This document shows, piece after piece, positions 13,875 to 21,503 of a stretch of DNA of 41,790 nt. Both the position numbers and the translations under genes were made by a program. The notes below the pieces were generated by a model, which saw only the letters and a list, made by a program, of their open reading frames with translations, made no database searches and was not told the DNA's origin. Numbering within the stretch: the stretch's first letter is position 1; each line of letters opens with the position of its first letter. The DNA is from Candidatus Heimdallarchaeota archaeon. Its GTDB lineage: Archaea; Asgardarchaeota; Heimdallarchaeia; Heimdallarchaeales; Heimdallarchaeaceae. The DNA is taken from contig JAGXNV010000004.1 of NCBI GenBank assembly GCA_019894795.1, positions 1-41,790 of the forward strand, in the 5' to 3' direction.

Positions 13875-14144
13875 GTCTCTTTCCTCATATAAATTCCATT
13901 AAGCATGTTGAATAAGTCTGAAAGAAATAGAAAACTTCTCTTCTTAAACCGGATTCAAGATTTTCAATTCTAAACCCTCTATATACAATAAAGAAGTAAG
14001 TATTATCTACGCAATATCTACTGTTTTCCACAGCTTTGAAACATTATTCAACAATACAAAATACGCAATTATTAACAATAAGCTAAGTACAGAGCGTTAG
14101 AATTAATTACAAAATGCTGTAACTTTCATACAGAAATGACAATG

Positions 14145-14154
14145 TTTATATATA
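14145..14154 (+). promoter_or_regulatory. Archaeal TATA box candidate for the 14.2-16.7 kb operon
   Basis: TTTATATATA, about 40-50 nt upstream of the first start codons (14196/14208). Confidence 0.55.
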
Positions 14155-14195
14155 CTTACAGAATAATTGAACATAACACGAATAAAGTGTAATAA

Positions 14196-14330
14196 ATGGT
14201 GAGAAACATGAGACAAAGTGAAACAATAAAAACATTGGATGATGAAATCCGCAGATTAAAAGACGAATTAAATCAGCTTCAAAGAGCAAAACGAGGTCTG
14301 AAAAGAAGAACTGATGGAGCCGTGCAATAA
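14196..14330 (+). CDS. Small basic coiled-coil protein (44 aa from 14196, or 40 aa from 14208)
   Basis: MVRNMRQSETIKTLDDEIRRLKDELNQLQRAKRGLKRRTDGAVQ*; overlaps the next ORF start at 14314; missing from the ORF track. Confidence 0.55.
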   Translation: MVRNMRQSETIKTLDDEIRRLKDELNQLQRAKRGLKRRTDGAVQ

Positions 14331-14544
14331 GGTGCTAATCTTGGATAAGCATGGCATTAAGGATAATTTTGACGATTATCAAAAGGAATGGTTGAGTGAG
14401 TTCAAAGTATCTATGGAGGAATTCAAAGCATCAATAAAGGACATGCTATCAGATTTAAAAGACAATATGAATGATCTAAAAGATGATTTAAAAGACATAT
14501 TTGACTCCGAAGAAAATTTCGAAGATGGGGGGAGTATTTTTTAA
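14314..14544 (+). CDS. Small acidic amphipathic-helix protein
   Basis: 76 aa with heptad-like 'MLSDLKDNMNDLKDDLKDIFDSEENF'; ATG overlaps upstream ORF. Confidence 0.65.
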   Translation: MEPCNKVLILDKHGIKDNFDDYQKEWLSEFKVSMEEFKASIKDMLSDLKDNMNDLKDDLKDIFDSEENFEDGGSIF

Positions 14545-14557
14545 TTAGGTGATTAAA

Positions 14558-15979
14558 ATGGTGGAAGATAAAGAAAACATGAAAGAATTAAGAGAAGAAA
14601 TTGATGAACTAAAAAATCTCATCAAGAATCTAGAGAAGAATCAAGCTAACGCTTACAAAGATATGGATAAATCAAATACAGGTTCTGGTTCAGTTTCACA
14701 AGAAGAAGAAGAAGAAAAACTCAAAAGAGTAGCTAGAAGAAAAATTGAGAAGGATATCAGAAGGAATAATCGGAGAACTGAGGAGCCCATACATGACGAA
14801 CCTTTAAGGCCCGTTATGCCTCCAAAACCTCCAAGACCTCCAATGCATTCCAAACCAGTCAAACCAGCTATGCCCCATCCAATAGTAAGACCTGTAATTT
14901 TCAAAGGGTTTGAAGGCCGAATTGATTTTGATTCTGATGATTTTAAAAAGTCCTTGAAAGAGTTTACAAAAAGAGTTGAAATAGCTGCCAAAGAAGGAGA
15001 AAAAGCTGCAAAGCATATTACAGATAAGCTTTCAAAGAAAGTTCATAAAGTGTTGGAAAGAGAAAATGAAAGATTAAGAGATGCTGTAGATATCTCAACT
15101 GAAGAATATGAGGAAATTGTTGAAGGAATTGAAGAGGCAAGGGAAGAGATGGAAGAAGCTCAACAAGACATGGAAAGAGCTAGACAATTAGTCATTGAAG
15201 CTCAGCGAGAGATAGGTGCAGCAAGACGAAGAATCGAAAGAGCACTACAAGAAGGAGATCAGAGCAGCAAGCGTGAAGCTGAAGAGGATTTAGCACATGC
15301 AACTGAAGATTTACAAAATGCAAGAGATGATATTCGTGATGCTAGAAACGAGATTTCACAAGCAAAAAGAGAATTTGCTAGATTGCAAAGAAGAGCATCA
15401 AGTATTCATGAAGCACAGTCAAAAAATGGTGGATCAAGAGTTATAAGAGAAGGAGATATAGATTTAGGTTCAACTTTTACTGAATACGCAGATAGAGTAA
15501 TTTCATCAGTTGCAAAAAACTTGGAAAGCACTATTAGAATTGCAGTAGATGGAGGTAAAAGAGCTATCAGAGGAACGGTAAGAATTGATAAAGACAAAGG
15601 CACTGTAATCAGTGAGCCTGAAAATTCGAGAGATATCGAAGATTTTGAAGAGATGATGGAGAAAGCTGCAGAGTTACTATCAGCATTAGGAGACAAAAAC
15701 AGATTACTATTGCTTAAGATACTTGAACATTCACCACAATATCAGAAAGAACTTGCTGAAGAAACAGGATGGAAAGGAGGAACGTTTAAGCATCACACAG
15801 ATATTCTGCAAGAGGTTAACTTCATCACACGTGAAGCAATCCGAGGAAGATATCTAATTACACAGTTGGGTATTGAAGCTCTTAAATTAGCAGAGTTAAT
15901 ACATTATCGTAAAGAACAACTGGAAAACTACGAGAGCGAAGATGACGACGATTCAATCGATATTGATATTGAAGATTAA
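14558..15979 (+). CDS. Long coiled-coil/proline-rich protein with C-terminal ArsR-type winged helix
   Basis: Heptad-rich 150-300 aa region, 'PVMPPKPPRPPMHSKPVKPAMPHP' segment, C-terminal 'LLSALGDKNRLLLLKILEHSPQYQKELAEETGWKGGTFKHHTDILQEVNFITREAIRGRYLITQLG'. Track ORF begins upstream at 14549. Confidence 0.8.
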   Translation: MVEDKENMKELREEIDELKNLIKNLEKNQANAYKDMDKSNTGSGSVSQEEEEEKLKRVARRKIEKDIRRNNRRTEEPIHDEPLRPVMPPKPPRPPMHSKPVKPAMPHPIVRPVIFKGFEGRIDFDSDDFKKSLKEFTKRVEIAAKEGEKAAKHITDKLSKKVHKVLERENERLRDAVDISTEEYEEIVEGIEEAREEMEEAQQDMERARQLVIEAQREIGAARRRIERALQEGDQSSKREAEEDLAHATEDLQNARDDIRDARNEISQAKREFARLQRRASSIHEAQSKNGGSRVIREGDIDLGSTFTEYADRVISSVAKNLESTIRIAVDGGKRAIRGTVRIDKDKGTVISEPENSRDIEDFEEMMEKAAELLSALGDKNRLLLLKILEHSPQYQKELAEETGWKGGTFKHHTDILQEVNFITREAIRGRYLITQLGIEALKLAELIHYRKEQLENYESEDDDDSIDIDIED

Positions 15980-15990
15980 AAGCAGGTGAA

Positions 15991-16671
15991 ATGTCGATGA
16001 GATTGAGTGTAAAAAACAGACCTTTGGAAATTTCCCACAGTTACGAACATACTTTCGATAATAATACTGTAAAAATCTCATTATCAAAGAAATCCCTATT
16101 ATTTCCAGTTTTTGATGAAAAAGAGAATAAACAAATAGGTTTTCTTCTCGAAGGACCATTAAGTATAATAGCGGATTTAATAGTTCATTCACAGGTAGGA
16201 GCCGTTGGAGAATTGATTGAGGAAACATTTTCAACAGCTATTCTATTTCCAGTAAACCTACCTTTTCTTTCCTTAGATCACGTTAAAGAATCGGCTCCTG
16301 TAGAAATTTTTGAACCATATCAAGAATTAGTAAACAAATATAATAGAGTTTATTCATTGAGTAAAATGGAGATAGCAGATTTTAACAAACACACCATAAT
16401 TGTAACACAAAAACCACGATTATTTTGGATAATAAGCCCAGATAGCGTTTTCTTACTAGGTAAGAAAGAAATTATCGGTCGAAAAGGTCAAAATAAATTA
16501 CTGTGGATTTCGAAAAAAGGTTTGATATCTGTTAGCAAAAAAGGAACATACAAAAACATCGGTGATATGTTCGAAATCAAAAGAATTAAACAAACTTTCC
16601 AAAGTGCATTTGAGAAACCATTAACAAATCTTTTTTCAAGTATACAAAATGCATTTTCAAAATTAATTTAA
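15991..16671 (+). CDS. Uncharacterized protein, fourth gene of the operon
   Basis: 226 aa, 11-nt gap after the winged-helix gene, AGGTGA-type RBS just upstream. Confidence 0.65.
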   Translation: MSMRLSVKNRPLEISHSYEHTFDNNTVKISLSKKSLLFPVFDEKENKQIGFLLEGPLSIIADLIVHSQVGAVGELIEETFSTAILFPVNLPFLSLDHVKESAPVEIFEPYQELVNKYNRVYSLSKMEIADFNKHTIIVTQKPRLFWIISPDSVFLLGKKEIIGRKGQNKLLWISKKGLISVSKKGTYKNIGDMFEIKRIKQTFQSAFEKPLTNLFSSIQNAFSKLI

Positions 16672-16703: not shown

Positions 16704-17684
16704 CTACAATAATTTTCTAACTATACTTGCAATGTGTTTAGAAATGATAGGAGGTACCGCCTCCCCAACTTGATTAAAAGCTGAGTCAACTTTTCCAGTA
16801 AAAATGAAGCTGTCTGGAAAACTCATCAATCGAGCATGTTCTCGTACAGTTAATGGTCTGTCCTCATCAGGATGTATAAAACGTGATTTACCCATAATTG
16901 TATCAGCAACTTTTCTTGGATCTAATTTAATCCAAGTTTTCTTTTCTTCAACCGCACCTGAGAAATGAACAGCTGCTTCACCTTTCTTTATTCGGTGTAT
17001 TTTATCACTAACTCGTTTTGGAAAGGAAAGAGTAAAATGGTTCAGGAATTCATTAGGATACGATGAATCAGGAAGATTACCTATTGCTTCACCTGTAGAA
17101 ATTTCGCGCATAGTTGGAAGTTTTAATCTAATGTTGCTTATGAAAACTCTTGTTCTTTCACTCGGACACCCATGCTTTTCGGCATTAATTACATTGAAAT
17201 ATATTTTCTCGAAACCAGCGTTCGCAAATTCAGTGGTGATTAGTTCCTTACCAACACCATTCATTATTGGAACAACATTTTCAATAACAAAGTATGAAGG
17301 TGATAAGTCTCCAATTATTCTGATTGCATGAAAAATTAAATCGCCCTGGGGGTCAGCAAAAAATCTATCAAATGGATCTTTATGTCTTGCAGTGTTAGCA
17401 GAAGTAAATGGTTCACAAGGCGGTGAAGCAAGAATTACATCAGGTGAGCTTTTTAATTTAGATTGAATTTGTAAGGAATGAATATCACGGATATCACCAT
17501 TCATCATAGGGGTATTAGGGAAATTAAGATTGTAAGTTTGGACTGCCCCATCATCTATTTCTATGGCTAAGAGATCCTTGAATCCTTCTTGCAAAAAACC
17601 TAAACTAAACCCCCCAGCGCCAGAGAACAAATCTATAAAAGTAAAGGATGATTCATGAGTTTCGTCAATTGTGATATTTTTCAC
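16704..17684 (-). CDS. DNA (cytosine-5) methyltransferase
   Basis: 'FIDLFSGAGGFSLGF', 'ASPPCEPFTSAN', 'YFVIENV', 'CPSERTRVF', 'RPLTVREHARLMSFPDSF', 'QVGEAVPP' = C5-MTase motifs I-X. Confidence 0.92.
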   Translation of the reverse strand: MKNITIDETHESSFTFIDLFSGAGGFSLGFLQEGFKDLLAIEIDDGAVQTYNLNFPNTPMMNGDIRDIHSLQIQSKLKSSPDVILASPPCEPFTSANTARHKDPFDRFFADPQGDLIFHAIRIIGDLSPSYFVIENVVPIMNGVGKELITTEFANAGFEKIYFNVINAEKHGCPSERTRVFISNIRLKLPTMREISTGEAIGNLPDSSYPNEFLNHFTLSFPKRVSDKIHRIKKGEAAVHFSGAVEEKKTWIKLDPRKVADTIMGKSRFIHPDEDRPLTVREHARLMSFPDSFIFTGKVDSAFNQVGEAVPPIISKHIASIVRKLL

Positions 17685-17720
17685 CTACTGCTTGAACAAT
17701 GGAAAAATCATTAATAGTGG

Positions 17721-17792
17721 TGGGCGAGGCAGGAATTGAACCTGCGGCCTCTTCCACGTGAAGGAAGCGTTATTCCACTAAACCACTCGCCC
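17721..17792 (-). tRNA. tRNA-Val (CAC)
   Basis: Minus strand GGGCGAG...CTCGCCC acceptor, anticodon arm CTTCC-TTCACGT-GGAAG (CAC), T-arm GCAGG-TTCAATT-CCTGC, D-arm GTT...AAC. Confidence 0.9.
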
Positions 17793-19394: not shown

Positions 19395-21008
19395 TTAGAG
19401 TTGTGTAAATTCTATTACACGGAGATTGGTAGGTTTCTTTGTAATTTCACCTTTTCTTGCTCCAATCACCATTCTAATTCCTTTGTTGTATGATTTTTCA
19501 AGTAGTCTTTGAGTGATTACTCCATCAATCACTAACACTTGTGCATTTTCTACACCATCTAGTGTTGAATGAATCTCACTTGCAGAGCTCCTTAGAATTT
19601 CTTTTTCAGTTTCATCAAATACGACAGCTTCAAGTTTTGTTTTAATATTCGTTACAGAAGTTGACAAGTATTCAGGTAACTGAACTTTTCTAATCTCTCT
19701 TTGTGGTGGTCTCCCACGTGGTCTACCAGAAGAAGGTCTACCAGAAGAAGGTCTACCAGAAGAAGGCCTACCAGAAGAAGGCCTACCAGAAGAAGGCCTA
19801 CCAGAAGAAGGTCTACCAGAAGAAGGCCTACCAGAAGAAGGTCTATCAGAAGAAGGCCTACCAGAAGAAGGTCTATCAGAAGAAGGTCTACTAGGAGGTC
19901 GTTTAGAATCAGTAGTTGGTTTTCTAGTAACAGCACTATCACGAGGCTGTCTTACTCTTTCAGGTTGTTTTACAGGAGCACCAGGTTTTGCAACTGGTTC
20001 CTTTATCACCGAAGAGGGTTTTGAAACGGTTGTTTTTTCCAGCTCTTTTTTAGAAGAAAATATAGATGTAATCTTCTTTGTTGGTTCTTTCTTGATTTTT
20101 AATGCTTTTCTTTTCTTTTTATCATCAAGTTTGTCTTTTTCAAGAAATTCTTTAACTGTTTTTCCTTCATCTTCCCCTGTTAAGAAAACTGTTTTTTCTA
20201 TAGATACAGCATCATTAAGAGATTTGTTTACTTGGTCCTTATTTAAATCTTCAACTTCCTTTCCTTTGGGAGCACGAGCAACATATTGTACATTTGCTAC
20301 TTGAAGCAATTCTTTAAGAATCAAATCACCACCCCTATCCCCATCAAGAAAAGCTGTAACTGTTTTCTTCTTGATGAGATCAATTAATTTGGGGGGAACA
20401 CTTGTTCCATTTACGGCAATTGTGTTATCAATTCCAAATTTTAGAAGATTAACAACATCAGCTCTACCCTCAACAAGTATAGTTTTCTTTTGTTTTTCGA
20501 ATCCAGGTCCAGCTGAAATTCCCTCATCACCCAAGTTAACAACTGGTCCAACTTTAGAGGATTTTTCAACTTCTAGAGCTAAGGACGAACTAAATGGGCT
20601 TACATTTTGATCCCATTGTCTGATAATCTCAGATGCACGGTCTACTATTGATTGTCTTTTATTGACTCGCACATCAACTATCTCTTTAAGCTGTATTTGA
20701 CAACTACATGGACCTACTCGGTCTACTGTTTCAAGAGTAGCGGCGAGTATTGCGGTCTCTGTTCGTGATAAACTGGAGGGGATAACGATCTTACCTGTTG
20801 TTTTTCCCCTGCTACTAGAATAATTAACACTAATTCTTCCGATTCTACCGGTTTTTTGAAGTTCTCGGATATCTAGATTTTCGCTTAAGAGCCCATCGGT
20901 TTGACCGTATATAGCTCCTACAATATCTGGTTTTTCAACCACTCCGTCGACTTCGAAGTTAGCTGTTATTTCATATTTTGTTGTTGAAGTATCGGTTTTT
21001 GTACCCAT
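19395..21008 (-). CDS. dnaG: Archaeal DnaG-type primase (Toprim)
   Basis: 'TKYEITANFEVDGVVEKPDIVGAIYGQTDGLL', 'ILVEGRADVVNLLKFGIDNTIAVNGTSVP', 'AFLDGDRGGDLILKELLQVANVQYVARAPKGKEVEDL'; C-terminal linker contains SS[G/D]RP repeats. Start set at internal M (MGTKTDT). Confidence 0.93.
   Translation of the reverse strand: MGTKTDTSTTKYEITANFEVDGVVEKPDIVGAIYGQTDGLLSENLDIRELQKTGRIGRISVNYSSSRGKTTGKIVIPSSLSRTETAILAATLETVDRVGPCSCQIQLKEIVDVRVNKRQSIVDRASEIIRQWDQNVSPFSSSLALEVEKSSKVGPVVNLGDEGISAGPGFEKQKKTILVEGRADVVNLLKFGIDNTIAVNGTSVPPKLIDLIKKKTVTAFLDGDRGGDLILKELLQVANVQYVARAPKGKEVEDLNKDQVNKSLNDAVSIEKTVFLTGEDEGKTVKEFLEKDKLDDKKKRKALKIKKEPTKKITSIFSSKKELEKTTVSKPSSVIKEPVAKPGAPVKQPERVRQPRDSAVTRKPTTDSKRPPSRPSSDRPSSGRPSSDRPSSGRPSSGRPSSGRPSSGRPSSGRPSSGRPSSGRPSSGRPRGRPPQREIRKVQLPEYLSTSVTNIKTKLEAVVFDETEKEILRSSASEIHSTLDGVENAQVLVIDGVITQRLLEKSYNKGIRMVIGARKGEITKKPTNLRVIEFTQL
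19720..19884 (-). repeat. 15-bp tandem minisatellite in dnaG (11 units)
   Basis: Eleven near-identical ggyctaycagaagaa units (plus strand) = SS(G/D)RP pentapeptides. Confidence 0.95.
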
Positions 21009-21503
21009 ATCCTTCACCTACTTTTTTACTTTAGTTATAAGTTGCTTAAGTATGAGAAGAAAACCGATAGGTACATCCACTAATCCCTACCCCCTCATTT
21101 ACCTTCTAAATTTAATTTAATCTTAATTTTATTACCATTGAATGCACTTTTGTATGCGTTCCTTGTGATTATGATTATGATTATGTAAAGATTGTAAAGT
21201 TCGTAATTATCGTGATAGGTGATTGTAAGTGTGATACCCATCAGACTTCTTTCAACTTTTACGCAAACTTAAGTTGTTGTTTGCTATCAAGGTATATTTC
21301 GAATACCTGTTAGTCTGATTTGTAAACTAAATTATTTAGTTCAAGGAAATATAGAGTTGGGGGCGTTAAAAACGTTCCCATATATCACAAAGCAAATTTC
21401 AAAGAAGAGAAGGCAAGATTTAATCTCCGAAGAAATTTCTGTTAGTATAGATATTTTGCTTAACTTTAAATAATTAGTAATTCAGTTTTATTTAGAGATT
21501 AAA

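Follow-up and report, generated by a model that had tools for sequence, protein, structure and literature searches.

What might be the function of a compact archaeal operon in which two genes encode small helices of opposite charge, the third encodes a coiled coil joined to a winged helix (wHTH), and the last encodes an orphan protein? The question was raised by a locus of Candidatus Heimdallarchaeota, located in a stretch of 41,790 nucleotides (contig C308, hereafter the window) of a 3.07 Mb genome which is 89% complete. Heimdall archaea are among the closest relatives of eukaryotes, which arose from Asgard archaea, and the transcriptional control of Asgard genes is, to our knowledge, still poorly understood. 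An initial annotation, made from the sequence alone, had proposed a self-assembling scaffold or a nucleoid-associated complex, with the wHTH providing DNA binding or autoregulation.

The open-reading-frame check of the window located the four genes and the TATA-like box (TTTATATA, positions 14145–14152, plus strand, conserved in relatives) where they had been described. All four genes are on the plus strand. P1 (14208–14330) encodes a 40-aa basic helix and P2 (14332–14544) a 70-aa acidic amphipathic helix. They are followed by P3 (14558–15979, starting with ATG 14558), the 473-aa predicted autoregulator, and by P4 (15991–16671), a beta-rich protein with a C-terminal amphipathic helix, 226 aa long from ATG 15991 or 224 aa long from ATG 15997. 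The annotated sizes of P3 and P4 were retained, and those of the two small genes were revised. The alignment of relatives moved the P1 start to ATG 14208, as compared to the 44-aa ORF from 14196, and the P2 start to GTG 14332, as compared to the 76-aa ORF from 14314. With these corrected starts, P1 and P2 abut and do not overlap as had been thought. The pN/pS ratios among the six nearest genomes were 0.29 for P1, 0.41 for P2, 0.33 for P3 and 0.17 for P4, indicating that P1 and P2 are true coding genes under purifying selection. Their opposite charges were also verified, with a net charge of +1 to +9 for P1 and −7 to −16 for P2.

The order P1-P2-P3-P4 was found in all the Heimdallarchaeaceae contigs reaching far enough (15 in addition to the window), and P1-P2-P3 where the contig ended inside or before P4. 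This conservation of the neighbourhood agrees with the view of the initial annotation that the genes form one system. Across the class, the P3-P4 pair persisted without P1 and P2, which are family-specific helical additions of Heimdallarchaeaceae. As P1 and P2 exist in one family only and the P3-P4 pair is far wider, the small proteins cannot be the core of the system. P3 was directly 5' of P4, often overlapping it, in 30/30 P4 loci of named genomes and in 11/11 further loci. A P3 homologue was also directly upstream of P4 in 40/40 more loci from families f5, f7, f11 and f28, usually at 15 nt or less or overlapping; in one of these (L142), P3 was interrupted by a frameshift or a sequencing error. 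Family f28 probably corresponds to Thorarchaeia (many genera, 45–50% GC). Diverged second copies, present in two f28 genomes (L107 and L158), were still P3-P4 pairs. Genome G056 (L223) was an exception, with P3 present and no recognised P4 adjoining it, and profile searches of the Asgard genomes detected neither P3 nor P4 in several near relatives.

A wide P4 profile detected P4 in 91 of the 232 Asgard genomes, with few exceptions as a single copy, and in several families the majority of the genomes had the pair. The P4 tree followed taxonomy with the minimum of six changes of family label, so inheritance looks vertical. A first scan of named genomes with P4 alone gave no match. The motif-based scan of named genomes, which was the only look beyond Asgard, returned Asgard records only: 33 relatives, filed under Heimdallarchaeota, Kariarchaeota or "Asgard group" and in one case simply as "archaeon", including Candidatus Heimdallarchaeum endolithica in the window's own family (f1).

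Structure prediction covered P3 and P4 among the four products. The architecture of P3 was as first described, a coiled coil, a proline-rich segment and a winged helix, and could be further resolved. From the N-terminus, a coiled coil (residues 1–38, positions 14558–14671), also seen in P3 of other families, is followed by a Pro-rich linker, a long helical hairpin (residues 127–289, positions 14936–15424), a helix conserved in relatives (residues 305–329, positions 15470–15544), the ArsR-type winged helix, which is the most conserved part (residues 376–446, positions 15683–15895), and an acidic tail. All the families share the N-terminal coiled coil, a Pro/Arg-rich linker, the helix, the winged helix and the acidic tail. 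The long hairpin occurs as an addition in some members of the class and is absent from many relatives, among them P3 proteins of 221 aa. The wHTH was assigned to the ArsR type by Pfam, NCBIfam, PDB sequence and fold. Pfam HTH_5 matched 26/26 P3 members at E ≤ 1 (best 1.9e-8), the window P3 scoring 21.4 bits, just under the curated cut-off of 22 bits, and the P3 profile matched the solved ArsR-type regulator NolR at 3e-7. The P3 family does not conserve the sensing cysteines of the metal- and thiol-sensing ArsR regulators: 61 of 70 P3 proteins were devoid of cysteine, making classical thiol or typical metal sensing unlikely. In the same genome, a further long protein (L056, G000:C39:4384-5793) has an ArsR-type wHTH close to the N-terminus; this domain is 30% identical to that of P3, but the architecture of the protein is unlike P3.

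Two palindromes surround the TATA-like box in the window. The first, O1 (TTACA-N6-TGTAA, TTACAAAATGCTGTAA, positions 14107–14122), is exact, conserved in position among relatives, and constitutes a candidate P3 operator. The second, O2 (TTACAGAATAATTGAA, positions 14156–14171), is degenerate with two mismatches, and is exact in L033, L034, L035 and L043. In the aligned promoters, copies of TTACA-N6-TGTAA flanked the TATA box on both sides. The Heimdallarchaeaceae showed 26 palindromes in 16 promoters (at most one mismatch), compared to a mean of 0.31 and a maximum of 2 in shuffled sequences, and in families f5 and f6 P3 was also preceded by exact copies of the motif. An unbiased palindrome search in f28 revealed CTGTA-N6-TACAG in 15 of 31 promoters, as against at most 3 in shuffled sequences. 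The extended form ACTGTA-N6-TACAGT was counted 41 times in these 31 promoters (at most one mismatch; shuffles 0.23, maximum 2), typically just downstream of the TATA box and in some genomes also just upstream. At L204, a locus with a P3 relative and a membrane protein, TACA-N6-TGTA was located at about −39 from the start.

The exact copies per whole genome, 4–10 in Heimdall and 1–3 in f28, were about equal to the reversed-pattern control, and in seven f28 genomes 5 of the 12 exact copies were at this operon. In the window genome, most other copies were inside ORFs and their number was at chance level; no second regulated promoter emerged from them. This enrichment at the operon, with a chance level elsewhere, suggests that P3 regulates its own operon locally. 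In the simplest interpretation, P3 would bind the palindromes and control this operon only. The half-sites have opposite polarity in the two clades (TACA..TGTA in Heimdall versus TGTA..TACA in f28), which counts against this interpretation, as one protein family would have had to change its binding mode. The conservation of a palindrome at the operon in two deep Asgard clades strongly suggests, on sequence grounds, the DNA binding or autoregulation initially ascribed to the wHTH. The nucleoid-associated role is not supported, as the palindrome is confined to this operon.

The AF2 model of P4 was confident and beta-rich (pLDDT 82, pTM 0.78), except for the C-terminal helix, which was modelled poorly. 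P4 had no match in Pfam, NCBIfam or PDB sequence, and nothing credible in Foldseek (PDB, viral), so that its status of orphan was confirmed. The best Foldseek match, the Plk4 cryptic polo box (E 5e-4), is likewise made of an antiparallel beta sheet plus a helix; it was rejected as a different fold (TM-score 0.20, rmsd 16 Å). The invariant or nearly invariant residues G48, G53, D60, G68 and G71 (numbered from the MRL start) are all in one long hairpin. The C-terminal helix is amphipathic (muH about 0.4–0.6) and persists in relatives, and no transmembrane segment was found in P4 of Heimdall or f28.

The P3 profile search detected weaker relatives in other Asgard families. In f8, f9, f10 and f23, a coil plus wHTH protein of 180–233 aa was directly followed by a protein with a soluble part and predicted membrane spans, one in L206 and several in the others. 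The N-terminal half of these membrane proteins aligned with P4 in a profile-profile comparison (92.3% probability, score 54.3, over 117 columns only), the controls reaching at most 20.0 with 40 column-shuffled profiles and 19.9 with the reversed profile. From this alignment, P4 appears to be a detached soluble domain of the membrane protein, or the reverse. In the window, the membrane attachment of P4 would depend on the amphipathic helix, modelled by AF2 at low confidence.

The P2 profile matched the C-terminal extension of a Kariarchaeota P4 (L089) with 19.9 bits, as compared to 7.6 bits for the best of 200 shuffles and 10.1 bits for the best P3 coil. The fusion of a P2-like helix to this P4 suggests that P2 works with P4. 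P1 matched the N-terminal coil of P3 start to start in most genomes. Its origin as a copy of this coil reached 17% by profile comparison with no HMM support, and was left as a possibility.

We propose that the operon is a self-controlled regulator-partner module, with P3 as the autorepressor and P4 as a membrane-linked partner, a model to which we give about an even chance. P3 would dimerise via its coiled coil and bind the palindromes beside its own TATA box, thus keeping the operon at a low level; the choice of repression over activation is an assumption, based on the location of the palindrome next to the TATA box. P4 would be attached to the membrane through its amphipathic C-terminal helix. 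It would sense a membrane-related state as the signal, and capture or modify P3 in a putative P3-P4 complex. Repression would then be relieved, in the way SdpI sequesters SdpR. P2 probably acts on P4, and P1 possibly on the P3 coiled coil.

In Bacillus subtilis, the polytopic membrane protein SdpI sequesters the autorepressor SdpR at the membrane (PMC1626106). Our best reading is that the nearest logic would be of this kind, an ArsR-type autorepressor under a co-encoded membrane-linked partner, without membership of the SdpR/SdpI family. The two systems share a two-gene operon with the ArsR-type regulator first and its partner second, the autoregulation predicted for P3 and, in four Asgard families, a partner with membrane spans. 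They differ in several respects: P3 scored 18.3 bits against the SdpR model, whose cut-off is 100, and possesses an extra coiled coil, helix and acidic tail. Neither P4 nor the P4-like membrane proteins had an SdpI match, the Asgard pair is without a toxin gene, and the partner in Heimdall and f28 is not an integral membrane protein. The ArsR/SmtB regulators (NolR, CzrA, SmtB, BigR) have in common with P3 the wHTH fold, the sequence family and a palindrome in their own promoter, whereas most P3 proteins are without cysteine and P4 is not a recognised transporter or enzyme. A looser parallel than SdpR/SdpI is the PSP network, in which HAAS-PadR wHTH/toastrack systems associate a wHTH, a helical domain and a beta-rich sub-membrane protein (PMC11237479). 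The regulator, helical domain and beta-rich protein similarly occupy one neighbourhood here, but the P3 wHTH is of the ArsR type and not of the PadR type.

Other explanations were considered. P3 may autoregulate while P4 acts as a cytosolic ligand-binding or effector protein, any membrane link having been lost when it became a separate soluble protein. The clustering of the conserved glycines and aspartate in one hairpin, as in a binding site, and the lack of a transmembrane segment in P4 of Heimdall and f28 would fit such a soluble sensor. We consider it unlikely, although worth keeping in mind, given the P4-like domains on membrane proteins in four other families and the persistence of the amphipathic C-terminus. 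The self-assembling scaffold or nucleoid complex initially imagined, in which P1, P2 and the coiled coil of P3 would assemble and the wHTH would anchor them to DNA, is improbable. P3 is indeed largely helical and the oppositely charged P1 and P2 are conserved in the family, but these two are found only in Heimdallarchaeaceae and only part of the class has the long coil, whereas the P3-P4 pair is more widely distributed. In addition, the palindrome is operon-specific.

A role in membrane remodelling of the PSP/ESCRT kind, in which the P3 hairpin would form a PspA/Vipp1-like polymer and P4 a toastrack-like sub-membrane platform, appears slightly less probable again. It is suggested by the way PSP loci join wHTH, helical and beta platform proteins (PMC11237479), and by a weak Foldseek match of P3 to Vipp1 (6zvr, rank 43, E 0.01). 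The hairpin is missing from many P3 proteins, and PspA_IM30, PspC and toastrack were absent from the Pfam matches listed for P3 or P4 members, P4 having no toastrack model match; the P3 coil was therefore not retained as a PspA. Finally, two overlapping and apparently autoregulated genes evoke a toxin-antitoxin pair, with P3 as the antitoxin-type autorepressor and P4 as the toxin. This is very improbable for a locus inherited vertically as one copy per genome in most genomes of several families, and with a P4-homologous domain carried by membrane proteins. P4 matched no toxin family, and the plasmid search gave no match.

Returning to the regulator-partner module, we tentatively extend it, at clearly less than even confidence, to the whole of Asgard. 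The P3-P4 pair would be an Asgard-wide module, which the ancestor of the phylum may already have possessed. Its autorepressor would be coupled to a membrane-linked beta domain of an undescribed kind, sensing the state of the membrane or surface. The partner would be anchored in some lineages and peripheral in Heimdall and f28, with P1 and P2 as helpers acquired in Heimdallarchaeaceae. In this locus, a regulator that is conserved and inherited vertically comes with a defined candidate operator. Its near-constant partner belongs to an undescribed family, which homology links to membrane proteins. The locus offers a small testable case of the way in which Asgard cells may connect the state of their membrane with transcription. 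Proteins without a name in the family libraries searched also gain first relatives and a candidate role.

The wHTH matches in f12, f13, f16, f19, f20 and f26 were set aside, as they belong to other architectures without P4. In the first five of these families, the match was an Asgard protein of about 250 aa (L207, L208, L209, L210, L211, L212, L213, L215, L219, L221, L222) with recurring cysteines in a helical region (C-x5-CT, CPDxxC) and a terminal ArsR-type wHTH. In f26 (L214, L220), an ORF of about 387 aa combined an ArsR-type wHTH with a corrinoid-binding methyltransferase-like domain, recognised by eye from the GTVEGDTHDIGKNVV motif, which suggests a B12-linked regulator.

Downstream of the operon and convergent with it, a cytosine-C5 DNA methyltransferase-like gene was recognised by eye on the minus strand (16704–17684), and antisense ORFs suggest its presence in several relatives of the same genus. 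Beyond it are a tRNA-Val (17718–17792) and, on the minus strand at 19395–21017, a gene for a DnaG-like TOPRIM protein (by eye) whose C-terminal half carries a long run of RPSSG/RPSSD repeats.
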